26,659 nt of DNA from the IMG/VR virus record IMGVR_UViG_3300037247_002433, positions 1-26,659 of that record; one strand, 5' to 3'. The notes below the pieces were generated by a model. That model saw only the letters and a program-made list of their open reading frames with translations. It was not told the origin of the DNA and did not search any database. The translations under genes and the position numbers were made by a program. Numbering within the stretch: the first letter of the stretch is position 1; every line of letters begins with the position of its first letter. Origin of the DNA: a virus. Below, one piece after another: positions 2,602-26,659 of the stretch.

Positions 2602-3411
2602 TTATTCATTATTGAATAAATTATTTGCAGGGCATTCATATGCCCATGTAATATCTTTCTTGGCTATATCATAGTATTCTTCAACCTTCTCTATACCAAT
2701 AAAGTCCCGCCCGTTTCGGGCAGCCATTCTACCAGTTGTACCACTCCCCATAAATGGGTCAAATACAACATCGCCCTTATTACTCCATGATAAAATATGG
2801 TCAGTGGCTATAGCATCAGGGAATACAGCAGGATGTTTTGCTTTTTGACTGCCTTGATGCGGAATCAACCATATATTATGCCTTTGCCCAAATTCATTAA
2901 CAAGTTTCTTATTTTCGTTATACTTCTTAATACTACCATCTGGCATACGGGTTGAACCTTGATACTTACTACCAAAAGTAAGATTTTTTCTATCCATTAA
3001 CGCATTAAATGTCCCAAGCTTGCCTTTACTGAATACAAACATATACTCAAATACATGAGCATATCTAACTTTTAATGACCCAACAGTAGAAAAGTTTCCT
3101 TTGTCCCATATCATCGTGTCGTGTAACTTAAAACCTACACTCTGGAAGTATAATGCCTGACGAAATGAAGTGCCAGTCTCATTACCATCTACCGTGGCAT
3201 CAGATACAATCCATACAACTACTCCACCCTTTTTGGTTATACGATAAAGTTCACGAATGACGGGTTTCCATATATGTATACCCCAATCCAACGACCCTTC
3301 GTATGTTCGCAAATTATCATATGGAGGACTGGTCATGGTTAAATCTATACTATTCTCGGGCAAGTCTTTCATTTTATCAAGGCAATCGCCAAGGTGTAAA
3401 TTATACTTCAC
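2602..3411 (-). CDS. DNA methyltransferase, N4-cytosine/N6-adenine beta type
   Basis: This is a 269-residue S-adenosylmethionine-dependent DNA amino-methyltransferase. Catalytic motif IV, TSPPY, is at residues 27-31 and the SAM-binding motif, FDPFMGSGTT, at about 217-226. That order defines the beta class (N6_N4_Mtase family). TSPPY occurs in both N4-cytosine and N6-adenine enzymes, so the modified base is not settled. It is a paralog of the next gene: both start M-[EK]-YNLHLG and end in PANN-[IL]-F. The start is GTG at 3411, sharing its G with the upstream stop (TAGTG) and preceded by ggagaag. No restriction enzyme is adjacent, so it probably modifies phage DNA against host restriction or serves regulation. 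The target sequence is unknown. Confidence 0.9.
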   Translation of the reverse strand: MKYNLHLGDCLDKMKDLPENSIDLTMTSPPYDNLRTYEGSLDWGIHIWKPVIRELYRITKKGGVVVWIVSDATVDGNETGTSFRQALYFQSVGFKLHDTMIWDKGNFSTVGSLKVRYAHVFEYMFVFSKGKLGTFNALMDRKNLTFGSKYQGSTRMPDGSIKKYNENKKLVNEFGQRHNIWLIPHQGSQKAKHPAVFPDAIATDHILSWSNKGDVVFDPFMGSGTTGRMAARNGRDFIGIEKVEEYYDIAKKDITWAYECPANNLFNNE

Positions 3412-4703
3412 TATTCTTCTCCAAATATATTATTAGCAGGCGCATCATACTCTATACTGACACGCTGCTCTGCTATGTTATAATATGTTTCATTCATTTC
3501 TATACCAACGAAATCAAATCCTTCTCTGGCTGCCGCCATACCCGTTGAACCACTCCCCATGAACGGATCAAGTATAATACCACCTTTCGGTGTGACCAAT
3601 CTGCATAGGTATTTCATCAAATCTATTGGTTTCATTGTTGGATGGATATTTCCACTCTTTTTACTTTCGTTTTCATTTATTTCTTTTCTTACATCTAACA
3701 TATCTGATCCTTGACCAGCAGCTACATCTGAAAATGGCTTATTTTCTACACTCATGTATAGTGCTCGCTCTGATGAACTCACTTTCGGGTGATAGAAATA
3801 CTTCTCATATCCTTTGATTTCGCCTATTACATTCGCAGCCCATCTACCTTTATCACTGGCAGTCCAATCTCCTGATCCATCACCACCGGATATTGTATCA
3901 CCTTCTATACCATTGAAGAACGATGCGGGTCTTTTACCGGCTGATGGTTTAGGATTATCTATATTTGATCCGGGATAGAAAGAAATATTATCACCACTAC
4001 CTTTTGGTTTATCTTTATATGTTTCATAAACTGTTGTATAACTTTTACTATGCCATTCTGGTGTATTATCTTCTTTATATGGTATTCTACAAGCTCCAAT
4101 ATTCATGGAACCAACGCCATGTTCTAAACAGTTGGCAGCCGTGGATAGTTTAGTAGGCTTTCTTGCCAGACATATAGGCTCTTGACTTGGTTTTAGATTA
4201 GTGGAATAATCATCCCACTGTTTAGCAACATCGGAAGTTGGTTCATAAGAAGCATCTTTATCAATTTCTTTACCGTGTAAATCCTTTAAAAATCCCAAAT
4301 CGTATAGATTTGATTCTCCGTCTGTATCACGATAGTTATCGTTATGGTCATCGGTGTTATTACCGAGATACTTATCAATCTTTTTAGCGGTATTTCCGCC
4401 CTTTGGGAAACCCGAACTATAAATCCAAGAAATCATATCCTTAATCTCAAATCCAACATCTTCTATCATGGTGGCAGTCTTATGGTATGTTCTTGCCGAA
4501 CTAAACGCCAGCAGATATCCACCCGGTTTTAGGACTCTTAAACATTCCTCGAATACCGGTTTCAAATCTGTTTTATCACCATCCCAGCCTTTACCTAAAA
4601 AGTTTATAAGGTATGGAGGATCGCAGACTACGCTATGAAAATGATTATCTGGATAATCTTTTAATACTTCGGATGATTCGCCAAGGTGTAGGTTATATTC
4701 CAT
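3411..4703 (-). CDS. DNA methyltransferase, beta type, with large insertion
   Basis: This 430-residue DNA methyltransferase has motif IV DPPY at residues 28-31 and the SAM-binding motif FDPFMGSGST at about 378-387, again beta class. DPPY is typical of N6-adenine enzymes. I start it at ATG 4703 rather than an in-frame TTG at 4724 because MEYNLHLGES then aligns with MKYNLHLGDC of the neighbouring paralog and a purine-rich gaaggga lies upstream. Compared with the paralog it carries about 160 extra residues in the middle (roughly 125-330), probably the target-recognition region. The two genes overlap by one base and share N- and C-terminal ends, pointing to tandem duplication with divergence of specificity. 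Confidence 0.9.
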   Translation of the reverse strand: MEYNLHLGESSEVLKDYPDNHFHSVVCDPPYLINFLGKGWDGDKTDLKPVFEECLRVLKPGGYLLAFSSARTYHKTATMIEDVGFEIKDMISWIYSSGFPKGGNTAKKIDKYLGNNTDDHNDNYRDTDGESNLYDLGFLKDLHGKEIDKDASYEPTSDVAKQWDDYSTNLKPSQEPICLARKPTKLSTAANCLEHGVGSMNIGACRIPYKEDNTPEWHSKSYTTVYETYKDKPKGSGDNISFYPGSNIDNPKPSAGKRPASFFNGIEGDTISGGDGSGDWTASDKGRWAANVIGEIKGYEKYFYHPKVSSSERALYMSVENKPFSDVAAGQGSDMLDVRKEINENESKKSGNIHPTMKPIDLMKYLCRLVTPKGGIILDPFMGSGSTGMAAAREGFDFVGIEMNETYYNIAEQRVSIEYDAPANNIFGEE

Positions 4704-5031
4704 TGTTTTTAGAATTCCCTTCAAGATGTTTCTCCACTAACTTCTCCAACTTGGCAAGCTTATTATCAAGCGTAGAAGGCAGCCATTCCTCTTTATGTAG
4801 CACTTTATAGGCTTTCTTATATGCCTCGTGTGCCTCATCTTCGGTGTTAAACATACCAATATGTTGAGTTTTACCTTTATATTTTACGGAAGCTCGCCAG
4901 CGACCATTCAGAGAAAGGGTTCCTACTAAATGTTGTCTTGTTTCATCTATGAGTATAACATTTTCAACTATACCTTTTTCAGCTAGTCTTCGTAATTCCC
5001 TGATGATTTCATACTCATCATTTATCGGCAT
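4693..5031 (-). CDS. AP2-domain DNA-binding protein
   Basis: Residues 36-80 or so fit the AP2/ERF fold: VGTLSLNGRWRASVKYKGK (three-stranded sheet with the Trp-Arg pair) followed by HIGMFNTEDEAHEAYKKAY (the helix). In phages AP2 domains usually accompany HNH homing endonucleases, but this 112-residue protein has no nuclease part. The N-terminal 30 residues are helical and the C-terminus is a Leu/Lys-rich helix (LDNKLAKLEKLVEKHLEG) that could dimerise. The ATG at 5031 follows aggagataaaag. It overlaps the lipoprotein gene upstream and the methyltransferase downstream. It could be a stand-alone regulator of this operon or the remnant of a homing endonuclease. Confidence 0.8.
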   Translation of the reverse strand: MPINDEYEIIRELRRLAEKGIVENVILIDETRQHLVGTLSLNGRWRASVKYKGKTQHIGMFNTEDEAHEAYKKAYKVLHKEEWLPSTLDNKLAKLEKLVEKHLEGNSKNNGI

Positions 5032-5149
5032 CTTTTATCTCCTGTATCTCTTGTTGTTCAGCCACACTGAATATCAGTATCGCGGCGTCTAAATATATCG
5101 AGCATCCTGATAAAAATAGGGCACTTATCACTGTTAATATTTTAATCAT
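5018..5149 (-). CDS. 43-residue lipoprotein
   Basis: The frame begins ATG at 5149 after a strong ribosome binding site (ataggagag) and ends at 5018, overlapping the AP2 gene start by 14 nt. The N-terminus, MIKILTVISALFLSGC, is a textbook lipoprotein signal: Lys, a short hydrophobic core, and the lipobox L-S-G-C with the lipidated Cys at residue 16. The mature part would be only 28 residues, with a hydrophobic stretch and an acidic end. Small phage lipoproteins act as outer spanins (Rz1 type) or as superinfection-exclusion proteins. Mature Rz1 is Pro-rich and nested in Rz, and neither feature is seen, so exclusion or conversion seems likelier. That choice is inference. Confidence 0.65.
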   Translation of the reverse strand: MIKILTVISALFLSGCSIYLDAAILIFSVAEQQEIQEIKDADK

Positions 5150-5168
5150 CTATTTTCTCTCCTATATC

Positions 5169-5176
5169 TATTTATC
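5169..5176 (-). promoter_or_regulatory. T4-type late promoter box GATAAATA
   Basis: On the minus strand the sequence reads aaaaaGATAAATAgatatAGGAGAG, so transcription by the T4 spacing would begin right at the ribosome binding site of the lipoprotein gene. The same AAAGATAAATAGA stretch occurs on the minus strand at 10283-10290. It lies downstream of the sigma70-like promoter, giving the operon two candidate starts. Confidence 0.45.
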
Positions 5177-5188
5177 TTTTTATGCCTT

Positions 5189-5209
5189 TTTAGCGTTATT
5201 AACGCTAAA
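5189..5209. promoter_or_regulatory. 21-bp palindrome, probable operator
   Basis: TTTAGCGTT-ATT-AACGCTAAA is a perfect 9-bp inverted repeat with a 3-bp centre. It overlaps the -10 box and start region of the minus-strand promoter at 5208-5236, where a dimeric repressor would block initiation. As RNA it could form a hairpin, but no T-run follows on the operon strand, so an operator fits better than a terminator. Confidence 0.55.
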
Positions 5210-5236
5210 TATAGCAGTTTTATTCAACAGAGTCAA
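5208..5236 (-). promoter_or_regulatory. Sigma70-like promoter of the lipoprotein-methyltransferase operon
   Basis: The minus strand reads TTGACT, a 17-nt spacer, then TATATT. These are close to the TTGACA and TATAAT consensus at the ideal spacing. It lies about 60 nt upstream of the lipoprotein start and should serve host RNA polymerase early in infection. The 21-bp palindrome overlaps its downstream edge. Confidence 0.6.
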
Positions 5237-5360
5237 CAACTTTCTTCACTTTTTATCATTATTATCTATGTCAATAAGCATCTTAAAGTGTAACAAAGTG
5301 TCGCACTTTCGGGTATATTGTTGAATGATATAATATATGAACAACCATTCATACTTACAG

Positions 5361-5417
5361 GAAGTTGCGCAGCAACTATCCTGTTGCGCAATCGGAACCT
5401 ACGCGGGGCGTAGTTCC
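5361..5417. repeat. Two hairpin-forming inverted repeats
   Basis: TTGCGCA and TGCGCAA form a stem around a loop of about 13 nt near 5363-5390. Next to it GGAA-C-CTACGC-GGG-GCGTAG-TTCC (5394-5417) is a 10-bp stem with a one-base bulge. Neither has a T-run. They lie at the left edge of the iteron array and may be part of the origin. Confidence 0.45.
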
Positions 5418-5446
5418 GTCAAGTGTTTTATGGCTAAACTTTGTTG

Positions 5447-5872
5447 GCATACTGGGACACTTATAGCGCATTTTATAGTATTTTGGGCATACTGGGATAC
5501 TTATCAGCGATTTTTCATGTCAGGAATAAGTGTTTCATCGTAGGAATAAGTGCCTCAAGGTTAATAAGTACTCCAACGCCTCCCATAAGTGATCTAAGCC
5601 TCGCCCGAAACCTTGGTAAACCGTAGATATACCCTGAATTCATTGTGGATAATACTGGGATACTTATGTTTATGATTTGTTCACGATATGTTCCACGGTG
5701 TCCCTACGGTGTGTACTGTATCAAATAGTTAATAATAAACTATAACCAACAGTTTCTACCGTGCTTACATAAGTATCCCATAGTTGTGCTTAGACTATTA
5801 CTTACTTTGTGTATATCGTGGAACACTTATAGAGATATGATGGGGCACTTATGATAATGGTGGAGCACTTAT
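5447..5872. other. Probable replication origin: iteron array with DnaA box
   Basis: Eleven copies of the core ATAAGT(G/A) occur in both orientations at 5458, 5498, 5526, 5546, 5564, 5585, 5661, 5769, 5824, 5846 and 5866. The extended form is ATAAGTR-N-Y-CCA. Two runs (5526-5591 and 5824-5872) are spaced about 20 bp apart, two helical turns, so proteins would bind the same face. A longer form, TACTGGGAYACTTAT, appears three times. A perfect DnaA box (TGTGGATAA, complement of TTATCCACA) lies at 5644-5652 in the middle. No gene fits here. Iterons, a DnaA box, AT-richness and the nearby helicase and primase genes together suggest an origin; an operator array is the main alternative. Confidence 0.6.
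5644..5652 (-). promoter_or_regulatory. Perfect DnaA box
   Basis: TGTGGATAA is the exact complement of the consensus host DnaA box TTATCCACA. It lies in the iteron array, 9 bp before another ACTTAT core. A single 9-mer can occur by chance, but its position inside the repeat array makes it meaningful. Confidence 0.55.
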
Positions 5873-6272
5873 ATGTCAGAGTTGGGGAGGGGTATGGGGG
5901 GACTTGGGGGAAATAAAATTCTCGGGGGCATCTATGTATGCGAGCCGATACCCCTTGTATTTATAAATATTAAAGGAATTCAGTTAGGGTTTATTGTACC
6001 TCCTTTATGGCATGTAGGCTGTCATAGAACACCAAGTGTTGCTGCGTGAGTCAAAACATCTCACAATATAACCCTTTAAACATTGAGTAGATGAAAAGCG
6101 ATACATGCCTACTTCTTAATACTGCACTCTCATATTGAGTTGTATCGAGCAAAGAAAAAACATTACATTTATATCAGTCATTTCACACGTCAGGGTTTCT
6201 TTAATCTGATAGGTTTCTCTCAATCCCATTTTTAATGCGTTTCTATAATTCCAGTTTATCATAAGTGCTCCA
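5873..6272. other. Non-coding region right of the iterons
   Basis: I see no convincing gene in these 400 bases. Features present are a G-rich stretch at 5884-5930, overlapping late-promoter-like boxes on both strands at 5958-5969, and a region at 6010-6110 with short nested stems (GTAGGC/GCCTAC about 95 nt apart, AACAC-CAA-GTGTT, and GTGAG/CTCAC). These could form a structured RNA, but each stem is short. One more iteron-like site, ATAAGTGCTCCA, lies at 6261. Confidence 0.4.
5958..5969. promoter_or_regulatory. Overlapping late-promoter boxes on both strands
   Basis: TATAAATA is read on the plus strand at 5962-5969 and on the minus strand at 5958-5965, sharing the central TATA. It lies between the iteron array and the gene at 6273-6548. 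It could fire either way, or be a chance AT-rich match, since no gene start is close. Confidence 0.3.
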
Positions 6273-8314: not shown

Positions 8315-9348
8315 ATCTTTCTACCTCCTGATATTTTGTATCTTAACTTTTCTAATGGTGTAGAAGGAAGTCGTGTTGCTTTACCAACACCCTTTCCGCC
8401 AAACTTTCTTATGGCACCACTTATAGACGAATCTAAATATCTGTCTTTTAAGTATATAGACTTTTCGCTACTTCCAGAAGGAGCGCAGTTGATTCGTTCC
8501 ACTATTCTCCTTTTTAGTTCTGAAATATCATGCGGGGGGCTTGTACTGGCTATCCATGATGCAATAGCACGCTGAATAGGCATATGATATCTTGGTCCTA
8601 TATCGTTCACCAATGCGTCAAAACCTTTTGGAATATAAGTGCTCGATGATATTATATTTGCTTTATCAAAAATAATTTCAGGCTTGGTAGGTTTGGGTAT
8701 CAGTAGACTATTATTTTCTTTTATAACAAAACCAGAACGCTTTTCAACTGGATCGTGAACATCAAGGAAGATTGGATTAGCAGTATAGTTGGGTTGAACA
8801 GTTCTCATTGGCGAATCGTCTAATACACCAGTAGAAATAGCCCAATCAGACGCTTCTTCATCGGTTAACGGTTCTTCAAGCCAGAACCATATATGGCATC
8901 TTAATTCATCCCATCCGTATAATCCAGCCTGTGAAGACCATTGATAATGATACGATATATTGTGGCAATAATCTGGTAGGTGCCCTATCATCCATTCAAC
9001 TCTATCTTTTTCTTGTAGACCTGGTATAGTGGGGAACTTATCAAAATCCGCCATTATAAAATATCTGCCTTTAGGGACAGTTATGTAATATGCCAGTTCG
9101 CCTTCCCAAGCATCTTTACGCCTTAATACTCTACTTGGATCACGACCTTCTATAAGTGCTCCCCTGATTACTACCATATGTGGTTCGGTTTCCAACGCGG
9201 TTAATAGTTCAGATAAGTCTTCTATTCCTGAGCAGGGCACTTCATTATGAATGAACCATTTGGCGAAATCATAATCTTTCTTCCCACGCTTGCTGAATAT
9301 CTTGGTCATAACATTTGGTTCAGCATTTAATACTGTAATATTATCCAT
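8311..9348 (-). CDS. Primase-polymerase-like (AEP) protein
   Basis: I start this 345-residue protein at ATG 9348 (gtgggggaata upstream) rather than at a GTG 4 codons earlier. It shows a plausible archaeo-eukaryotic primase signature: a D-x-D in RYFIMADFDKF (D101/D103), a conserved-looking His in RCHIWFWLEEP (H152), and a third Asp in NPIFLDVHDP (D196). Order and spacing fit AEP motifs I-III, with two acidic residues for metal, a His for nucleotide binding and a final Asp. The C-terminal 120 residues are basic and may contact DNA or the helicase. It lies directly upstream of the SF3 helicase with overlapping codons, the usual primase-helicase pairing. Overall similarity is too low for a firm family name. 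Confidence 0.7.
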   Translation of the reverse strand: MDNITVLNAEPNVMTKIFSKRGKKDYDFAKWFIHNEVPCSGIEDLSELLTALETEPHMVVIRGALIEGRDPSRVLRRKDAWEGELAYYITVPKGRYFIMADFDKFPTIPGLQEKDRVEWMIGHLPDYCHNISYHYQWSSQAGLYGWDELRCHIWFWLEEPLTDEEASDWAISTGVLDDSPMRTVQPNYTANPIFLDVHDPVEKRSGFVIKENNSLLIPKPTKPEIIFDKANIISSSTYIPKGFDALVNDIGPRYHMPIQRAIASWIASTSPPHDISELKRRIVERINCAPSGSSEKSIYLKDRYLDSSISGAIRKFGGKGVGKATRLPSTPLEKLRYKISGGRKI

Positions 9349-9752
9349 TATTCCCCCCACCTGAGCTTATAAGCCATAGCATCTGCATCATCATCAAATT
9401 TAATCATTACTGCCACTTGTTTGCCTGTACTTGTTGATGATTGATAATGTTCTATAATTTCTTTCATATCAAAATTGCCTTTTATATTTTCATGTATCCA
9501 ACCATAATAACCTATACGGGCCAGCATCATTTCTTTACTATCGGTATAATCTTCACCATTAACCCATGAAATAGCAAACCAAAAATCCTCTTCCATATCA
9601 TTGATTACTAATTTTACTTTTTCATTTGCTATAACTTGTTGATTTGTTTTTTGTAGTTTTCTTTTCTTAAAATATCTTTTTATATTAAGACCGGTTGTGA
9701 TTACTATATAAATCATACACACAACTATAGCTACTGTTTCTATTTCCATCAT
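9348..9752 (-). CDS. Membrane-anchored protein with DAMAYKLRW tail
   Basis: This 134-residue protein begins with one hydrophobic segment (VAIVVCMIYIVITTGL, about residues 7-22) followed by a very basic stretch (KRYFKKRKLQK), predicting an anchor with the rest in the cytoplasm. It ends FDDDADAMAYKLRWGE, the DA-x-A-[FY]-KL tail family. Two ATGs are adjacent (9752 and 9749); gaggttcgc lies upstream, and the start overlaps the stop of the previous gene. The stop overlaps the primase ATG (TAATG). It is the only tail-family member here with a clear transmembrane helix. Placement ahead of the primase might mean it links replication to the membrane, which is speculation. Confidence 0.75.
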   Translation of the reverse strand: MMEIETVAIVVCMIYIVITTGLNIKRYFKKRKLQKTNQQVIANEKVKLVINDMEEDFWFAISWVNGEDYTDSKEMMLARIGYYGWIHENIKGNFDMKEIIEHYQSSTSTGKQVAVMIKFDDDADAMAYKLRWGE

Positions 9753-10117
9753 GCGAACCTCAATTTGAAAGCCATAGCATCAGTTTCATCCTTAAAACGA
9801 TAACTAACCATATCATTGAAGTGGTACGCCGGATCGTTTAATATCATTTCATCATCAACATTAACACAATCAAGCCCACTATCATTACAATAAGTTCTTA
9901 TTTCTGATAATAAAGTATCTTTATCGTGATCATCAACGACTATAACTACCAACCAAGGCAATTCATCTATATAGAACTCTATTGCTGCTAACTCTTTACG
10001 ATGTTCATGGTGTTGCGCCGCTTGGGTTTTATACCAACTTTTAATAACACCTCTATTTTTTTTAATGGGTTTTATTACAAAACCTCTACTTTTTGGAAAT
10101 ATCATTTTTTCTGTCAT
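9749..10117 (-). CDS. Small protein with DAMAFKLRF tail
   Basis: This 122-residue protein is the first gene of the leftward unit. It has a basic N-terminus (RGFVIKPIKKNRGVIK), a central hydrophobic strand-like stretch (LPWLVVIVVDDHDKD) and the tail FKDETDAMAFKLRFA shared with five other genes. The ATG at 10117 follows aaaggagttagaaa. No known domain is recognised. The order strand, acidic turn, helix, tail suggests a small globular alpha/beta protein. The tail is very like that of 22770-23006 (ETDAMAFKL in both), although the two genes are on opposite strands and 13 kb apart. Confidence 0.75.
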   Translation of the reverse strand: MTEKMIFPKSRGFVIKPIKKNRGVIKSWYKTQAAQHHEHRKELAAIEFYIDELPWLVVIVVDDHDKDTLLSEIRTYCNDSGLDCVNVDDEMILNDPAYHFNDMVSYRFKDETDAMAFKLRFA

Positions 10118-18544: not shown

Positions 18545-19558
18545 ATGGTTTTATTTGTAGGCGATCCTTCTGCTCCAACAAGATTTGGTACAGATGTTGC
18601 TGATACCAGCGACAATACGGGTCTATTCTTAAAAATGTTTGGTGGTGAAACTTACGCAGCATTTAGCGAAAAGACACACACCATGGACAAGCATGTCATT
18701 AAAGAAATTTCTTCCGGTAAATCTCATCAGTTCCCTAAGACTTGGAAAGTTAGTGCGGCATATCACACTGCTGGTCAAGAAATGTTGGGCCAAGACACTG
18801 ATGAAACCGAAAGAGTTATTAGTATTGATGGCTTACTTGTTGCTCACATCGGCATCTATGATTTAGATGATGCGATGTCTCACTTTGATGTTCGTTCAGA
18901 ATATACAAGTGAACTCGGAAAAGCTCTTGCGAGAGTTTTCGACACAAATGTTTATCGTACAATCATCAAGACAGCGAGAGCAGATAGCTCCCTAGCGGGC
19001 GCATCGAGTACATCGCCGTTCCCTGATGGTACACAACTATTGAGTGCTGATGTTTCTGGCACTATTACTGCAACTGCTGGTGCTCAGTGGTGGGAAGTTA
19101 TGCGTGGACTACAAGTTGACGCTGAGCTTGCTAACTATGATGGCCCAATTCATCTTGCAGTTCCGCCAGCAACTTTCGACGCTACTGCATACAGTCAGGG
19201 TAGTGATTCTCTTGCCAATCCATTCTTGTTCGCAAATCGTGATCTTGCTGGATTTGGTGGTCAAGACCCAGATAACGAGAGTCTTAGACTTCGTAAAGTT
19301 ACTATGTATTCTTCTAACCTTATTCCTCAAAGTGATGATTCATCCAACGGTGATGTGAAAGCAAAATACCGTGCCGATTTTTCAACAACTTTTGGAGTTG
19401 CGTGGGGTAGACAGGGCGTTGGTACAACCAAGTTAATTGGTATGGGACTTGAAACTACTCGTGACGTTCGTCGTCAAGAGGACTTCATAGTTGCAAAAAT
19501 CGCCGTGGGCCACGGTCCACTTCGTAATGAAATTACGTGGGACATCCGAAACACCTAA
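18545..19558 (+). CDS. Major capsid protein (T7 gp10-like)
   Basis: This 337-residue protein is the T7-type capsid subunit. Recognisable blocks are the N-terminal GDPSAPTRFGTDVADT, then GKSHQFPKTWKVSAAYHT, the central GQDTDETERVISIDGLLVAH and DLDDAMSHFDVRSEYTSELG, and the C-terminal FGVAWGRQGVGTTKL. Length and block order agree with HK97-fold capsids of T7-like and marine podoviruses. The ATG at 18545 follows aaaggaaataaaaaa. It has its own late promoter, a long structured leader and a strong terminator, as expected for the most abundant virion protein. Unlike T7, it lies upstream of portal and scaffold. No T7-style slippery extension (gp10B) is evident before the stop. Confidence 0.95.
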   Translation: MVLFVGDPSAPTRFGTDVADTSDNTGLFLKMFGGETYAAFSEKTHTMDKHVIKEISSGKSHQFPKTWKVSAAYHTAGQEMLGQDTDETERVISIDGLLVAHIGIYDLDDAMSHFDVRSEYTSELGKALARVFDTNVYRTIIKTARADSSLAGASSTSPFPDGTQLLSADVSGTITATAGAQWWEVMRGLQVDAELANYDGPIHLAVPPATFDATAYSQGSDSLANPFLFANRDLAGFGGQDPDNESLRLRKVTMYSSNLIPQSDDSSNGDVKAKYRADFSTTFGVAWGRQGVGTTKLIGMGLETTRDVRRQEDFIVAKIAVGHGPLRNEITWDIRNT

Positions 19559-19604
19559 TAGTTAGGTAAAACATTTCATTTCGTCTCCTGATGTTTTGAA
19601 AAAG

Positions 19605-19643
19605 AAGAACCCAGTCGCAGAAATGTGGCTGGGTTCTTTGATT
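19605..19643 (+). terminator. Capsid terminator
   Basis: AAGAACCCAG (19605-19614) pairs perfectly with CTGGGTTCTT (19629-19638) around a 14-nt loop, followed by TGATTT and then AATAAATA. Confidence 0.8.
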
Positions 19644-19644
19644 T

Positions 19645-19652
19645 AATAAATA
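19645..19652 (+). promoter_or_regulatory. Late promoter box AATAAATA for the portal unit
   Basis: The box lies directly after the capsid terminator. With T4 spacing the message starts near 19658, 17 nt before the ATG at 19675, leaving room for its ribosome binding site (caggagata). Confidence 0.55.
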
Positions 19653-19674
19653 CATTATACACAGGAGATATAAA

Positions 19675-20055
19675 ATGACAGACGAAGAAGAATTCAAATT
19701 ACCAAGATTTTCAGCAGATTTGATAGATTTTCTTGATGAACAAACACAACTCCCAGATTTTCCAACAACAGTAAATCAATGGGGTAATTTAAATCCAGCT
19801 ACTACACAACAACTTGCGTTTAAGAGTGGTTATAGAAAATGTGTAGACGATTTAGTTGAATGGTTAAGGGAAACAAACGAAATAGAGAATATAGATGATA
19901 ATAACGATAACGAATCCAACGAGACAATCTACGACAAAGAGTTCGGTAGAGTTTTGGATGACAGCAGAGAAAAACATCCGAAAGTGGCACCCGTTCACAT
20001 GGACGGGGTTTTTGCTGAGAATGTGTTCCGTGATTACAGTGACCCATCAGAATAA
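19675..20055 (+). CDS. Acidic protein, possible N-terminal part of a GNAT-domain protein
   Basis: The ATG at 19675 follows cacaggagatataaa. The first 75 residues are acidic and helical (for example DLIDFLDEQTQLPDF) and precede an Asp/Asn-rich linker. The end, HPKVAPVHMDGVFAENVFRDY, looks like the first strand and helix of a GNAT acetyltransferase fold. The continuation of that fold (NNPIGYIFFSDIP) is in the +1 frame, so this 126-residue frame stops in the middle of a domain. Either the gene is split by a one-base change, natural or from assembly, or the two halves are joined by a +1 frameshift. I see no classical slippery codon pair at the junction. As a free-standing protein its function is unknown. 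Confidence 0.65.
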   Translation: MTDEEEFKLPRFSADLIDFLDEQTQLPDFPTTVNQWGNLNPATTQQLAFKSGYRKCVDDLVEWLRETNEIENIDDNNDNESNETIYDKEFGRVLDDSREKHPKVAPVHMDGVFAENVFRDYSDPSE

Positions 20056-20329
20056 CCCAATAGGTTATATTTTCTTTTCTGATATACCATCTTATAAATA
20101 CAAAATAAAGGAATTACATGTTTGTTGTGATCTTAAATACAAAGGAAGATGGGTCACTAAAAAAGTGCTCAATAAAATCTATTTTTGGCTAAATAGTAAT
20201 GATATAGACATGGTTTATGCCAATATTCAACAAAAAGGAACAAAAAACTTTGTAAAAAGGCTTGGTTTTGAAGTTTTTGATAAATTGGCCGTATTAAAGA
20301 GAGGTGATAATAAATGGGAAATCCGTTAG
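20021..20329 (+). CDS. GNAT-like acetyltransferase domain (frame-shifted partner)
   Basis: The frame is open from 19895 to 20329, and I give ATG 20021 as the likeliest independent start, without a good ribosome binding site. The product has GNAT-like order: a strand IGYIFFSDIP, a strand KELHVCCDLKYKGRW (the acceptor ELHV strand and the pyrophosphate-loop helix start), the helix KKVLNKIYFWLNSN, VYANIQQ, then the typical closing KNFVKRLGFEVFDKLAVLKR. Small GNAT proteins beside portals are known in phages. The N-terminal strand lies in the preceding gene, in another frame. A TATAAATA at 20093 lies within the coding sequence and may be chance. Substrate is unknown. Confidence 0.6.
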   Translation: MCSVITVTHQNNPIGYIFFSDIPSYKYKIKELHVCCDLKYKGRWVTKKVLNKIYFWLNSNDIDMVYANIQQKGTKNFVKRLGFEVFDKLAVLKRGDNKWEIR

Positions 20330-20721
20330 GAATATTTGGTGGTGGAAGTCGCCAGCAAGTAAGAGTTCCAGAACCAGAGGAAGATTTAACACAAATCGAC
20401 CCTAATCGTGCCGCACAATTAAGAGAAGCTGCTAAAAGACGGCAAGCTATTTTTGCTCGAAGAGGTAGAAGTTCTTTAAGAACAGATTTACCAGGGAGAG
20501 TATTTGATCCTTCACAAGTTAATAATACAACTGTTCCAACACCACCTAAACCAAAACCAAAAAAAGTTAAAAAGGTAGAAACTGCATTACAAAAACTTAA
20601 AAGAGTGCGAGGTGTATTTGGGGGCGAACAGGGAGGCGGAAGTTCACAAGCGGAAAGAGCCGAAGCGCGCAGCAATGTTCGTGGCACTGGTGACGGCTTT
20701 GGAGTTGGAGGAGATTTTTAA
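20314..20721 (+). CDS. Small virion-region protein with RRGRSSL motif
   Basis: This 135-residue protein lies upstream of the portal. It has a Gly-rich start (MGNPLGIFGGGSRQQ), a helix leading to RRQAIFARRGRSSLRTDLPG, a Pro/Lys linker (PPKPKPKKVKKVE) and a Gly/Ser-rich end. The R-R-G-R-[AS] pattern after an Ala/Lys-rich helix is common in small unnamed proteins of the head-gene region of podoviruses, as I recall. It is probably a virion or assembly accessory, but no function is established. The ATG has agaggtgataataa upstream and overlaps the GNAT-like stop. The TAA overlaps the next ATG (TAATG). Confidence 0.7.
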   Translation: MGNPLGIFGGGSRQQVRVPEPEEDLTQIDPNRAAQLREAAKRRQAIFARRGRSSLRTDLPGRVFDPSQVNNTTVPTPPKPKPKKVKKVETALQKLKRVRGVFGGEQGGGSSQAERAEARSNVRGTGDGFGVGGDF

Positions 20722-20942
20722 TGGTAAAATCAAAAAAGAAAAATATAATACCCCGATCATCAGAAGCATTAGGCTTAAAAGCTGAAAAAAGACGAATAAG
20801 AATCTCGGTATTCGGCGGTTCACCAACCACCAATGCTGGATCAAGAACCCATCACGGTCGTATTTTTAATAAAAAAATCAAAGAAGATAAAGAATCAAAA
20901 GAAAGAAAAAATATTCCTATTTTTAAAGGAAAAGATGAATAA
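20721..20942 (+). CDS. Small basic protein upstream of portal
   Basis: This 73-residue protein is very basic (MVKSKKKNIIPRSSEALGLK, then RRIRISVFGGS, and a Lys/Glu-rich C-terminal third). It is linked by overlapping stop and start codons to both neighbours and has a very strong ribosome binding site (ggaggagat). The charge suggests contact with DNA or with an acidic virion partner. No zinc, nuclease or membrane motif is visible. The neighbours imply a head or packaging role, but this is context only. Confidence 0.7.
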   Translation: MVKSKKKNIIPRSSEALGLKAEKRRIRISVFGGSPTTNAGSRTHHGRIFNKKIKEDKESKERKNIPIFKGKDE

Positions 20943-22504
20943 TGACAAACATAAAACACCGATATGATGCTATGACTCCAGATAGGAATCAATTCCTTCA
21001 ACGAGCAAGACATAATGCAATGTTAACTATCCCTAGTTTAATGCCACTCGAAGGCCACGATCAAAAGTCGCATTTATATGAACCTTATAATGGTTTAGGT
21101 TCAAGAGCGATTATATCATTGTCATCACGATTGACACTGGCTTTAATCCCTGCTGGTAGACCGCATTTAAGACTTGATATTCCACCAAAAATGTTATTTG
21201 AGATGAAAGGTGAAGTTCCAACAAAAGTAAGTCAAGACCTTGCTAAATCAGAAAAGATTATCCAAGCAGAAGTTGAAAGAGCAAATTGGCGTGGAGCTAC
21301 CTTGGTTACTATGCAACAACTTATAGTTGCGGGTTCAGCGATAGAGATAATGTTAGATGATAATACAATCAGAACAATTAGATTAGATCAGTTTGTATGG
21401 CGAAGAGACCACAAGGGTAGAGTTATTGAATGTGTAATAAAAGAATTATTTGATGTTGATAACCCACCAGAAGGGGTAAAAATACCAAAGAATAGTGTAA
21501 AACCTACCGATATGAGCGATTCTAAACAATTTGAGTCTGAACTATACACTTATATCAAAATGAAAAATGTAAAAGGTAAGAAGACATATGAAATAACAAG
21601 AGAAACCGGTGATGGTATATCTGTACCAAGTAAAGAAAAATTTGATATTGAAGATTTACCATATCTGTTTTTGCGTTGGAGTATTACACCCGGCGAAGAT
21701 TACGGTCGAGCTAAAGTAGAAGAAACTATTGCTGATTTTAGATCGCTTGACGCTTTAGAAAAAGCAAGTTTAGATTATGCTGCTATGGCTGCTAAAAACT
21801 TTATAATGATTAAACCTGGAGCTTCTGCTAATCAAATAAGAAACAAAATAACCAGAATGAATAATGGTGATCCGATATTAGGTGATCCAGAATCAGTCCA
21901 ATTCAAATCGTTTACAAATGTTACTGGATATCAAATTATATCTGAACAAATTTCAAGATTAACAAATAGCATTAGCCAAGCATTCTTATTACTTGGAGGA
22001 GCACAAAGAGACGCTGAAAGAGTTACAGCAGTTGAAATTGAAAGAGATATTCAAGAATTAGAATCCACTTTGGGTGGAGTATATTCTACATTAAGTCTTG
22101 AATTGCTTGAAAGAAGAACTGAACTTTTGATAGAATCTATGAAAGAACAAGGTTCTTTCCCAGATATAGAAAAAGATGCTCTACAAGCAACTATTTTAAC
22201 TGGTCTTGAAAGTCTTAGCCGAGAAAGAGATGTTGGCAGAGGTGTCCAGGCAGCACAAATTATCAATCAATTTGGTCCCGCTGGTGCAGCAGTCATAAAA
22301 ATGGACGTTATACTAAATAAGATAATGGTTGGACTTGGATTCCCTGATGCTATAAAAGATGAAGAACAGATAAAACAAGAGAATCAACAAAGACAAGATG
22401 AACAATTAACACAGCAAGCAACCGGACCAGCTATAAATGCTGCTGCTAAAATTGCTGGTAATGTTGATCCAGCCCAATTAGAGCAAATGGCTCAACAACT
22501 ATAA
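20942..22504 (+). CDS. Portal protein / head-tail connector (T7 gp8-like)
   Basis: This 520-residue protein forms the dodecameric ring through which DNA enters and leaves the head. Typical blocks are RYDAMTPDRNQFLQRAR at the start, LTIPSLMPLEG and EPYNGLGSRAIISLSSRL at about 28-67, then LTLALIPAGRPHLRLDIP. YLFLRWSITPGEDYGRAKVEE follows in the middle (in two pieces), with RLTNSISQAFLL and the helix ERVTAVEIERDIQELE later. Length is close to T7 gp8 (536). The C-terminus is Gln-rich. The ATG follows aaaggaaaagatgaata. It is the anchor gene of the unit begun at 19645 and is followed by small genes and the scaffold. Confidence 0.95.
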   Translation: MTNIKHRYDAMTPDRNQFLQRARHNAMLTIPSLMPLEGHDQKSHLYEPYNGLGSRAIISLSSRLTLALIPAGRPHLRLDIPPKMLFEMKGEVPTKVSQDLAKSEKIIQAEVERANWRGATLVTMQQLIVAGSAIEIMLDDNTIRTIRLDQFVWRRDHKGRVIECVIKELFDVDNPPEGVKIPKNSVKPTDMSDSKQFESELYTYIKMKNVKGKKTYEITRETGDGISVPSKEKFDIEDLPYLFLRWSITPGEDYGRAKVEETIADFRSLDALEKASLDYAAMAAKNFIMIKPGASANQIRNKITRMNNGDPILGDPESVQFKSFTNVTGYQIISEQISRLTNSISQAFLLLGGAQRDAERVTAVEIERDIQELESTLGGVYSTLSLELLERRTELLIESMKEQGSFPDIEKDALQATILTGLESLSRERDVGRGVQAAQIINQFGPAGAAVIKMDVILNKIMVGLGFPDAIKDEEQIKQENQQRQDEQLTQQATGPAINAAAKIAGNVDPAQLEQMAQQL

Positions 22505-22769: not shown

Positions 22770-23006
22770 ATGCCAATAGTTAATATGAGTGAATACGAAG
22801 TTCACATATATTCTATTTTTGGGAAATTTAAACAAATGATGAATTGGTGTCTATCTAATAATATAAATGTAGATTATAGAGGAATTTATAAAGAAAAAGA
22901 ATCATCAATGGGTAAAGAATATAAAAGAATTTTTACAGGAACAGCCTTTATTTTTGAGAGTGAAACAGACGCAATGGCTTTCAAATTAATGTGGGGCGGA
23001 GAATAA
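22770..23006 (+). CDS. Small protein with DAMAFKLMW tail in the head operon
   Basis: This 78-residue protein ends FESETDAMAFKLMWGGE, the only rightward member of the six-fold tail family, so the tail is used in both the replication/early arm and the virion arm. It starts MPIVNMSE, nearly the same as MPTVNMSE of the unrelated protein at 2362-2574, so it shares a head with one small protein and a tail with others. The middle has aromatic residues and Lys-rich turns. The ribosome binding site is caggagatattaaa, identical to that of the scaffold downstream. Function is unknown; sitting between portal and scaffold suggests a late role. Confidence 0.75.
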   Translation: MPIVNMSEYEVHIYSIFGKFKQMMNWCLSNNINVDYRGIYKEKESSMGKEYKRIFTGTAFIFESETDAMAFKLMWGGE

Positions 23007-23034: not shown

Positions 23035-23880
23035 ATGACAGAAAAAAATATAGAAGTTAAGGTTGAAGATAATAAAAGTCAATCTGCAACTTTTACACAA
23101 ACAGTAGAAGAAGTAAAAGAAGGTCTTGCTGCGGCAAAGAAAGAAGAATCTGCAAAGGATTTGGATGTTGATCAAGCTTCTTATGACAAATACTACAAAA
23201 ACGGAAAAATGGATTGGGCTTCCTTTGGGAAAGAACAAGCCTTCAAACAAAAAAATACCAAAAAAGAAGAATCCACAGAAGATACGAAAGCAGAAGAAAT
23301 TGAGACTCTTAATAATGTAGAGAAAGTTATTGAAGATGCAGGTTTGAATTTTGACGATATGTCTGATTCTATTGTTAAAAGTGGTAATATTGAAGATAAA
23401 GATCGAAAGTCTCTTATTGATAGTGGTATCCCTGGTGATATAATAGATACTTATATTAAGCTTTTACATAAAGAAACGGCTGATCATATCGGTCAGATTG
23501 AAAAAGCTTTGGGTGGCAAAGAAAATTTCACACAAGTGTTTGAAGCACTTCAAGAAAAAGCCACACAAAAACAAAGAGATACTATAGATGGTTTGATGTT
23601 TGAAGCAAAAACTTTTAATGCTGGTATTAATTTAGCATTAGAACTTGCTGGTTTATCAGCACCAGAATCCGCAAAAGAAGAAAAAACTTCTATAAACACA
23701 TTGAATAAGACGGCACCTTCGAGTTCTGGTGTTAAGGGATTTAATAGTATGGAAGAACAAACTTTGGCTATGCGTGATCCAAAATATAAAAAAGACGCTG
23801 CTTATAGAAAAGAAGTAGAGAAAAGAGTAGGTGCGAGCACTTATAATACAAATGTTAGACTTCATAGTTCTGGACTGTAA
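23035..23880 (+). CDS. Scaffolding / capsid assembly protein (T7 gp9-like)
   Basis: This 281-residue protein is highly charged with no Cys and mostly helical, as scaffolds are. The N-terminal 100 residues are acidic and repetitive in Lys/Glu. The centre has [20 protein letters not shown] and [18 protein letters not shown], the gp9-type pair of helices. The C-terminus has [20 protein letters not shown] and [14 protein letters not shown], the capsid-binding block I recognise from T7-like phages. It guides capsid assembly inside the prohead and leaves before packaging. The ATG has caggagatattaaa upstream. It follows the portal by two small genes, while the capsid itself is 4 kb upstream. Confidence 0.9.
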
Positions 23881-23881
23881 G

Positions 23882-24124
23882 ATGGTTAGTGTTCAAGACG
23901 TCTTTCTAAAACATATTCAAACAAATAAATTACCTGTTACGATATTTCTTATGAATGGTGTTAAATTACAAGGAATCCTGCCATGGTTTGATGATTTTTC
24001 GGTGTTATTGTTACGAGACGCACATTCGCAATTAATTTACAAACACGCAATATGTTCGGTGGCAACAACAACCCCAAGACCATTGTTTGAGCAAGTTCTT
24101 ATAGAAGCCGTTAAAAACGACTGA
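23882..24124 (+). CDS. hfq: Hfq-family RNA chaperone
   Basis: This 80-residue protein starts at ATG 23882, just after the scaffold stop. [24 protein letters not shown] and [20 protein letters not shown] match the Sm1 and Sm2 motifs of Hfq in order. Aligned with E. coli Hfq, Q5 (Q8), K28 (K31), F39 (F42) and K54-H55 (K56-H57) are kept, so both the U-binding proximal pore and the distal face look functional. F22 replaces Y25, and the rim arginines 16, 17 and 19 become Q, T and K. RD-x-HSQL-[IV]-YKHAI and TIFL-x-NGVKL are typical of alphaproteobacterial Hfq. It presumably forms a hexamer that pairs RNAs or competes with host Hfq. An upstream in-frame start inside the scaffold is unlikely. Confidence 0.88.
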
Positions 24125-25725: not shown

Positions 25726-25763
25726 AAACCCTCCTCTTCGTTGACTACGAAGGAGGGTTTTTT
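25726..25763 (+). terminator. Intrinsic terminator fused to next promoter
   Basis: AAACCCTCCT (25726-25735) pairs perfectly with AGGAGGGTTT (25751-25760), with an inner TCGT/ACGA helix and a 5-nt loop, followed by TTT. AATAAATA follows at once. Confidence 0.85.
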
Positions 25764-25771
25764 AATAAATA
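25764..25771 (+). promoter_or_regulatory. Late promoter box AATAAATA before the tRNA-like element
   Basis: AATAAATAGAA predicts a start near 25777, 4 nt before the first base of the tRNA/tmRNA-like fold. Terminator and promoter are contiguous. Confidence 0.55.
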
Positions 25772-25780
25772 GAATATATT

Positions 25781-25864
25781 GGGGCGCACAAATGGATTTG
25801 CCTGGGGGTTGGGATAGTATCCCGTAAACCCTTCAGTACGTTGGCTCGGAACCAACGCGCTCCA
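25781..25864 (+). ncRNA. tRNA/tmRNA-like structured RNA
   Basis: GGGGCGC (25781-25787) pairs with GCGCTCC (25857-25863) as a 7-bp acceptor-like stem. GTTGG-CTCGGAA-CCAAC (25840-25856) is a 5-bp stem with a 7-nt loop abutting it, exactly the T-arm layout, though T54 and A58 of the usual loop are C and G. After the first stem, tGGATTTGcc resembles the tmRNA D-loop GGATTCGAC. Instead of an anticodon arm there is a long helix (CTGGGGGTT/AACCCTTCAG with a bulge) capped by GGGAT-AGT-ATCCC. No anticodon loop, tag frame or encoded CCA is present. It may be a reduced tmRNA-like RNA, a regulatory leader for 25893-26177 or a relic attachment site. Confidence 0.5.
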
Positions 25865-25892
25865 CTGATAACATAATAACAGGAGATAAGAA

Positions 25893-26177
25893 ATGCGATT
25901 AGTTAATAAAGAAGTCACCAGACAAGGTGATATTATCACAATCAGAGGAGTTTGGTGTGATAGATTCAAACGATACGGCACTGTAGAAATCAAAGAAAAA
26001 ACTATGCACGAAGGCGTTCCAATGCCAACCACTATTATTAGTGGTGATGCTGGTGATGTTTTTAAGACATTATCAAGTTTGGCCGAGATTGCGTGGGGGC
26101 AAGGATGGCGTCCTAAAAATCTAACAGGAACACTTGTTGGTGTTATTGAAAATTATAAAATCCCGGATATTGAATAA
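25893..26177 (+). CDS. Conserved-looking small protein of unknown function
   Basis: This 94-residue protein begins MRLVNKEVTRQGDIITIRG and continues with beta-strand-like segments (GTVEIKEKTMHEGVP) and a helix (DVFKTLSSLAEIAWGQGW), ending in ENYKIPDIE. The ATG follows acaggagataagaa. It is the first gene after the tRNA-like element, so the element forms its 5' leader unless it is processed. Stop and next start overlap (TAATG). The strand-rich start and single helix suggest a small alpha/beta fold. I do not recognise a family, and no catalytic motif is visible. Confidence 0.7.
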   Translation: MRLVNKEVTRQGDIITIRGVWCDRFKRYGTVEIKEKTMHEGVPMPTTIISGDAGDVFKTLSSLAEIAWGQGWRPKNLTGTLVGVIENYKIPDIE

Positions 26178-26659
26178 TGGCTGATATGAAAGTTGGTATT
26201 GGACATCCAGATGATCCTTACAAAGACCAACTGTTAACAGTAGAAGAAGAACAAAGTATAGATGATAAAGGTCGTCGTGTTGTTAATGGTTTAGTATGGA
26301 GTAAAGCAAAAACTGGATTATATTTGGTAATATGCTTATCTCATGGTGATATAAAAAGCAAAAACAAAGTAATAGGAAGAACTAATATAAATTTAGGTGT
26401 ATCTGATTATATTCTTGGTGTTATGACTTCTTATGGTAAACCCTCTTTTAATAAACCCCATGTTGGAGCATGTCTTGAATTACCATCTGATTTAGGCAAA
26501 GACGAACTTAAAAAGAAATATATAACAGAGTGGATTACTAATACCACGGAAGAATGTTTTGGTATAAGTAAAATAAATGTCAAAAAAGAAAGCACTTATC
26601 ATACAGCTATAGCCGTTGTAGACGCTACTGAAAAAGCTATTGTGGCGTCTGGATTATAA
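26177..26659 (+). CDS. Protein of unknown function at the right edge
   Basis: This frame is complete, with 160 codons and a TAA on the last three bases of the window. The product starts MADMKVGIGHPDDPYKDQLL, has an acidic first third, a hydrophobic strand TGLYLVICLSHGD and a Lys-rich centre, and ends with the strand-like YHTAIAVVDATEKAIV. The overlap with the previous stop (TAATG) and a weak cggatatt site suggest coupled translation. No known tail-tube, internal virion or enzyme family is recognised. By position it may be a virion protein, but that is a guess. Confidence 0.65.
   Translation: MADMKVGIGHPDDPYKDQLLTVEEEQSIDDKGRRVVNGLVWSKAKTGLYLVICLSHGDIKSKNKVIGRTNINLGVSDYILGVMTSYGKPSFNKPHVGACLELPSDLGKDELKKKYITEWITNTTEECFGISKINVKKESTYHTAIAVVDATEKAIVASGL

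Follow-up and report, generated by a model that had tools for sequence, protein, structure and literature searches.

The 84-nt RNA encoded at 25781-25864 of a T7-like podovirus contig may well be a diverged, non-decoding derivative of tRNA-Tyr, with a predicted place at the head of the last late transcript. An origin from a tRNA is very probable and can be regarded as firm, while the Tyr type of the ancestral tRNA is likely, because the Tyr-specific matches are strong, yet the middle of the RNA is marginal and its T arm is also found in other phage isotypes. Since the outer stems pair and the codon-reading parts are gone, the RNA is best viewed as a relic or a reused structural leader and not as a tmRNA.

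The whole stretch of DNA that was analysed (the window) comprises all 26,659 bases of an IMG/VR virus record and may be a fragment of a genome; its portal, terminase, tail fibre and major capsid protein families mark a T7-like podovirus. An alphaproteobacterial host is indicated because the phage-encoded Hfq is nearest to alphaproteobacterial Hfq (up to 70% identical). The Hfq gene (23831-24121, + strand; PF17209, E 8e-24) starts within the scaffold gene, and a similar gene occurs in just a few records of the phage collection. Within 18545-22504, the major capsid gene precedes the portal module, and it follows the scaffold gene in relatives sharing these genes. Several small proteins (1-255, 269-463, 1358-1648, 9348-9752 and 9749-10117 on the - strand, 22770-23006 on the + strand) share a C-terminal motif like EDAMAFKLRW and are apparently a multiplied phage family. 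An adjacent pair of N6/N4 DNA methyltransferase genes (PF01555) lies at 2602-4724 (- strand), and about 1 kb at 5035-6110 has a convincing gene on neither strand.

Fold and parts of the RNA

The elements of the region are as follows.

25726-25763, + strand: intrinsic terminator of the upstream tail-gene transcript (inverted repeat, then T run)
25763-25771, + strand: T4-late-type promoter motif TAATAAATA, one of six intergenic copies ahead of late genes (predicted start about 25777)
25781-25864, + strand: tRNA-like RNA, 84 nt (fold, rarity and reciprocal covariance-model match with tRNA-Tyr)
25781-25787, + strand: 5′ strand of the acceptor stem, GGGGCGC (pair probability 0.93-1.0; pairs 5 and 7 still form but are reversed compared with tRNA-Tyr)
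25789-25800, + strand: weak hairpin at the D position, CAAA-UGGA-UUUG (pair probability 0.34-0.58)
25802-25836, + strand: long interrupted helix replacing the anticodon arm (minimum free energy structure; weakly like the tRNA-Tyr anticodon region)
25811-25823, + strand: inner hairpin GGGAUAGUAUCCC (sequence and alignments; in one reading an insert immediately 5′ of a GUA anticodon at 25824-25826)
25840-25856, + strand: T-type arm GUUGG-CUCGGAA-CCAAC (alphaproteobacterial tRNA-Tyr has the same stem and the same UAC before it; the loop here is non-canonical)
25857-25864, + strand: 3′ strand of the acceptor stem, GCGCUCC, with discriminator A (from the sequence; CUG follows, and CCA is not encoded)
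25881-25885, + strand: Shine-Dalgarno sequence AGGAG of the downstream gene (from the sequence; outside the fold)
25893-26177, + strand: first gene in the putative transcript, 94 aa (no family identified)
26177-26659, + strand: second gene, 160 aa (no family found; one-base overlap with the first gene)

The 84 nt fold with a minimum free energy of -33.4 kcal/mol (z -2.23). The first-pass annotation had placed a fold with a 7-bp acceptor-like stem at these coordinates, and this was confirmed: 25781-25787 pairs with 25857-25863 over 7 bp, with G.U at pair 3, the T-type arm abuts directly, and the pairs of both stems had probabilities of 0.93-1.0 in the four sequence contexts that were folded. 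The long helix that it had seen at the place of the anticodon arm is also present in the minimum free energy structure (25802-25836). Its claim of a T-arm in exact register stood for the 5-bp/7-nt geometry and fell for the loop: CUCGGAA keeps G53-C61, U55, C56 and R57 and breaks the tRNA consensus at 54, 58 and 60, away from the canonical UUCRANY, and because of this departure the label T-arm is valid for geometry alone.

A descriptor of this geometry (a 7-bp acceptor stem with an abutting 5-bp/7-nt arm) gave the RNA the highest score in the window, 32, with 28 as the next, and matched none of 60 whole-window and 5000 local dinucleotide shuffles, counts that are optimistic because the descriptor was picked after the finding was seen. 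The region is also the most G+C-rich non-coding stretch, at 57% G+C in a contig of 37%. It is improbable that the RNA is a structured 5′ leader whose likeness to a tRNA is accidental. Such an origin would agree with the silence of ARAGORN and Rfam and with the lack of homologs in the searches described below, but the descriptor nulls (0/60 and 0/5000) argue against it, as does the match to tRNA-Tyr under a structure-preserving null.

The anticodon region consists of a long helix with a 3-nt loop and contains no 7-nt anticodon loop with U33 and a free anticodon. The inner hairpin GGGAUAGUAUCCC can be read in two registers that score about equally, as an insert beside the GUA anticodon or as the anticodon arm itself. 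When GGGAUAGUAUCCC is deleted, a 5-bp stem with the loop UUGUAAA and the anticodon GUA results, which would suit a working but unusual tRNA-Tyr(GUA) in which the 13-nt hairpin beside the anticodon is either removed or serves as a shield against anticodon nucleases; evasion of tRNA nucleases has been proposed for phage tRNAs whose anticodon loops are altered (PMC10264068). We consider a working tRNA of this kind very improbable, since the ARAGORN standard search still made no tRNA call after the deletion, the T loop is without U54 and A58, and the alternative register scores about the same. An 11-codon frame running from ATG to TAA (25792-25827, + strand; MDLPGGWDSIP) lies inside the RNA with its start in the D-like loop, and is probably due to chance, frames of such length being expected often.

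Relationship to tRNA-Tyr and to tmRNA

The covariance-model check with tRNA and tmRNA models that had been proposed at the outset gave no match: a functional tRNA was not called by ARAGORN, by Rfam at gathering or relaxed thresholds or by a direct search with RF00005, and the tmRNA models RF00023 and RF01849 did not match the RNA at gathering or relaxed Rfam thresholds or in a direct RF00023 search. The relationship to tRNA-Tyr came from a covariance model built from the 84-nt sequence alone (R1), which was run against bacterial genomes. In the one with the Hfq nearest to the phage protein, R1 matched tRNA-Tyr and nothing else (32.3 bits, E 6.7e-4). R1 matched 14 loci in a draw of 142 alphaproteobacterial genomes and 3 in a draw of 398 from Pseudomonadota, making 16 distinct genes with one common to both draws, and all of the matched loci were tRNA-Tyr(GUA). 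In the other direction, a tRNA-Tyr model (R2) found only 25781-25864 in the window, at full length (E 8e-4), the two directions being not wholly independent because the tRNA-Tyr set behind R2 was gathered with R1.

Direct comparisons gave a similar picture. Among 31 distinct tRNAs from one genome, the Tyr tRNA scored 48.7 against the 84-nt RNA, and the next scored 26.0. The last 28 nt are identical to tRNA-Tyr at 23 positions, a level that 20,000 random sequences built on these stems never reached, and the stems plus linker agree at 18 of 20 positions, where the best cross-isotype pair in the compared genome agrees at 17. The UAC and T stem are the same as in alphaproteobacterial tRNA-Tyr; the T-arm string as such is shared by tRNA-Gln, Cys, His and Met of phages. 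The likeness of the middle to the tRNA-Tyr anticodon region is weak, with 57 of 1000 shuffles equally good, and the tRNA-Tyr genes in the compared genomes encode CCA, which the 84-nt RNA does not. For the 3′ part, the similarity exceeds both that of other isotypes and structured chance, and on these sequence comparisons the 3′ part is homologous to alphaproteobacterial tRNA-Tyr. The tRNA-like nature that the RNA was first credited with is thereby borne out by R1, R2 and the 23 of 28 identities.

The changes relative to tRNA-Tyr are unevenly distributed. All 12 pairs of the acceptor and T stems form in spite of five base differences among their 24 positions. In the acceptor stem, G-C has become C-G at pairs 5 and 7 and A-U has become G.U at pair 3; the T stem shows no change. 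Alteration or loss is seen in the T loop, D arm, anticodon loop and CCA. Kept stems and lost loops would fit a period of selection on the stems, acting either on a former tRNA or on a structure in use now. A plain decaying phage tRNA-Tyr pseudogene with eroded loops and no present function is possible, if doubtful. Decay would account for the loss of the loops, D arm, anticodon and CCA and for a middle that is nearly unrecognisable, and a decayed tRNA has been reported within a phage tRNA cluster (PMC3184105); it accounts less readily for the retention of every acceptor and T pair despite the base changes, two pairs having flipped, and for the high G+C retained in an A+T-rich contig.

Homologs with the same fold were sought in IMG/VR, among phages and relatives, by patterns and with R1, and none were found; searches by way of the neighbouring genes gave none in IMG/VR or phages. 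In relatives recognised by their portal and major capsid proteins, no counterpart could be detected for the RNA, the Hfq gene, the two downstream genes or the tail genes. Patterns of the T arm and of the acceptor plus D loop gave chance matches alone. A pattern for T arms of the tRNA-Tyr type matched 118 viral stretches; these were mostly ordinary tRNAs, the loop was canonical in every one, and R1 detected no relative among the 95 of them that were searched. Another phage contig (L063, 5186-5291, + strand) carries a 106-nt tRNA-like gene with the canonical T loop UUCAAAU; its middle is too long for a tRNA, and it may be a tRNA that has gained an insertion.

It had also been suggested that the RNA could be a relic attachment site, and that host genomes be searched for the same 3′ sequence. 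Such a site would be a copy of the end of a host tRNA gene, at its 3′ side. The tRNA-like part is indeed the 3′ part, but the exact 3′ 22-mer is absent from the genome_contigs collection and there is no long exact core, the RNA has a 5′ acceptor strand that co-varies, and the proteins scanned from this possibly incomplete contig included no recognised integrase. An attachment site is thus extremely improbable.

Because R1 cannot align tmRNA genes, whose halves are far apart or permuted, tmRNA was tested apart from R1, with 30 tmRNA domains from alphaproteobacteria and 9 of the standard type as the comparison set. In alphaproteobacterial tmRNA the T loop is non-canonical (GGC[GA]G[UA]A) and occurs together with G3.U70, which recalls the 84-nt RNA. 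A tmRNA origin was weighed on the alphaproteobacterial T loop GGCGGUA and was rejected against the 30 and 9 domains.

A minimal mimic of the tmRNA tRNA-like domain, which would be alanylated via G3.U70 and compete with host tmRNA for AlaRS or SmpB, appears improbable as well. In its favor, the RNA has G3.U70 and A73, as does every one of the tmRNAs extracted in both sets, its long helix and 3-nt linker are at P2-like places, and C56, G58 and A60 of its T loop are common to all or nearly all alphaproteobacterial tmRNAs. Apart from the lack of a model match, however, the T loop is no closer to tmRNA T loops than chance allows (p 0.05-0.14), the D region GGAUUUGCC compares with the conserved tmRNA D region GGAUUCGAC at p 0.10-0.12, the 3′ end is identical to the 30 alphaproteobacterial domains at no more than 16 of 28 positions, within the structured null, and the RNA, at 84 nt in all, has no tag-coding mRNA-like domain. 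The loop GGATTTG, which had been called tmRNA-like, was not confirmed as such (p about 0.1 against tmRNA D regions), and the proposed minimal tmRNA mimic or decoy is not supported. With the loop and 3′-end tests non-significant, tmRNA mimicry is a possible function and not an identification.

Predicted position at the head of a late transcript and putative leader function

A strong terminator lies directly upstream of the RNA, where one had been proposed, and the late promoter placed behind it is credible. TWATAAATA occurs 8 times on the + strand, where 1.6 copies are expected, and six copies are intergenic and lie before late genes (11762, 14406, 18286, 19644, 24136 and 25763), three of them fused to a terminator. 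The motif resembles the T4 late promoter consensus TATAAATA, as quoted in PMC3184105, and a TATAAATA-like element thus does precede the late genes; the motif is absent from the closest major capsid protein relatives, which are G+C-rich, and no T4-type sigma factor was identified in the contig. Because its recurrence supports a late promoter at 25763, the fold would lie at the 5′ end of a transcript. T4-type spacing from the motif predicts a start near 25777, 4 nt ahead of the fold, in agreement with the first-pass annotation. Direct occlusion of the downstream Shine-Dalgarno sequence by the fold is unlikely because 25881-25885 is outside it. A leader that controls translation, one of the initial suggestions, is a possible role all the same, as is a structured leader of another kind.

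The favored reading, a non-decoding tRNA-Tyr derivative, suggests the following course of events. A tRNA-Tyr-type gene would have been taken from an alphaproteobacterial host or from another phage, placed directly behind the late promoter where it heads the last late transcript, and then diverged into a non-decoding tRNA-like RNA, the loss of tRNA function being suggested by the non-canonical T loop, the tiny D arm, the lack of a free anticodon and the lack of an encoded CCA. The 12-bp acceptor/T minihelix that was kept, together with the long helix, would then serve the two downstream genes as a stable, cis-acting 5′ leader. Bacterial mRNA is protected by stable structure very close to its 5′ end, at a distance of a few nucleotides, and the leader could protect the 5′ end of this message and possibly offer a site for RNase P or RNase Z. 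The putative cis-acting function is the weak step, and our confidence in it is somewhat short of even. The fuller proposal is more tentative, namely that a host-type tRNA-Tyr was turned into a cis-acting 5′ leader of late mRNA, its minihelix kept by compensation and its decoding parts dropped, with host tRNA-processing enzymes or the fold itself setting both the end and the lifetime of the message. A functionless relic is nearly as likely as a leader role. If the leader role is true, the RNA would show clearly how a tRNA can be put to new use as part of an mRNA, with decoding lost, stems kept and a position at the exact start of a late transcript; if it is a mere relic, it would represent ordinary decay of a phage tRNA.

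Comparison with known systems

Phages often carry tRNAs, the role of which is debated. The T4 stable RNAs C and D (species 1 and 2) are non-decoding phage RNAs linked with tRNA genes; they are longer than the 84-nt RNA and are members of a tRNA operon. With the tRNA-like domain of tmRNA (RF00023, RF01849), the RNA shares G3.U70, A73 and a helix at the P2 position, but it differs in having no significant loop or 3′ match, no tag-coding part and no model match.

The closest resemblance is to alphaproteobacterial tRNA-Tyr(GUA), a class II tRNA, in length (84 versus 82-83 nt), in the UAC-GUUGG/CCAAC T stem, in the CUCC-A 3′ end and in the acceptor/T geometry, whereas the T loop, D arm, anticodon loop, variable arm and CCA are unlike it. 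A degenerate tRNA without clear specificity has been described inside the tRNA cluster of phage CBA120 (PMC3184105). Like that element, the 84-nt RNA is a tRNA-derived phage element without clear specificity; in contrast to it, the RNA stands alone, heads a late operon and has kept its outer stems.
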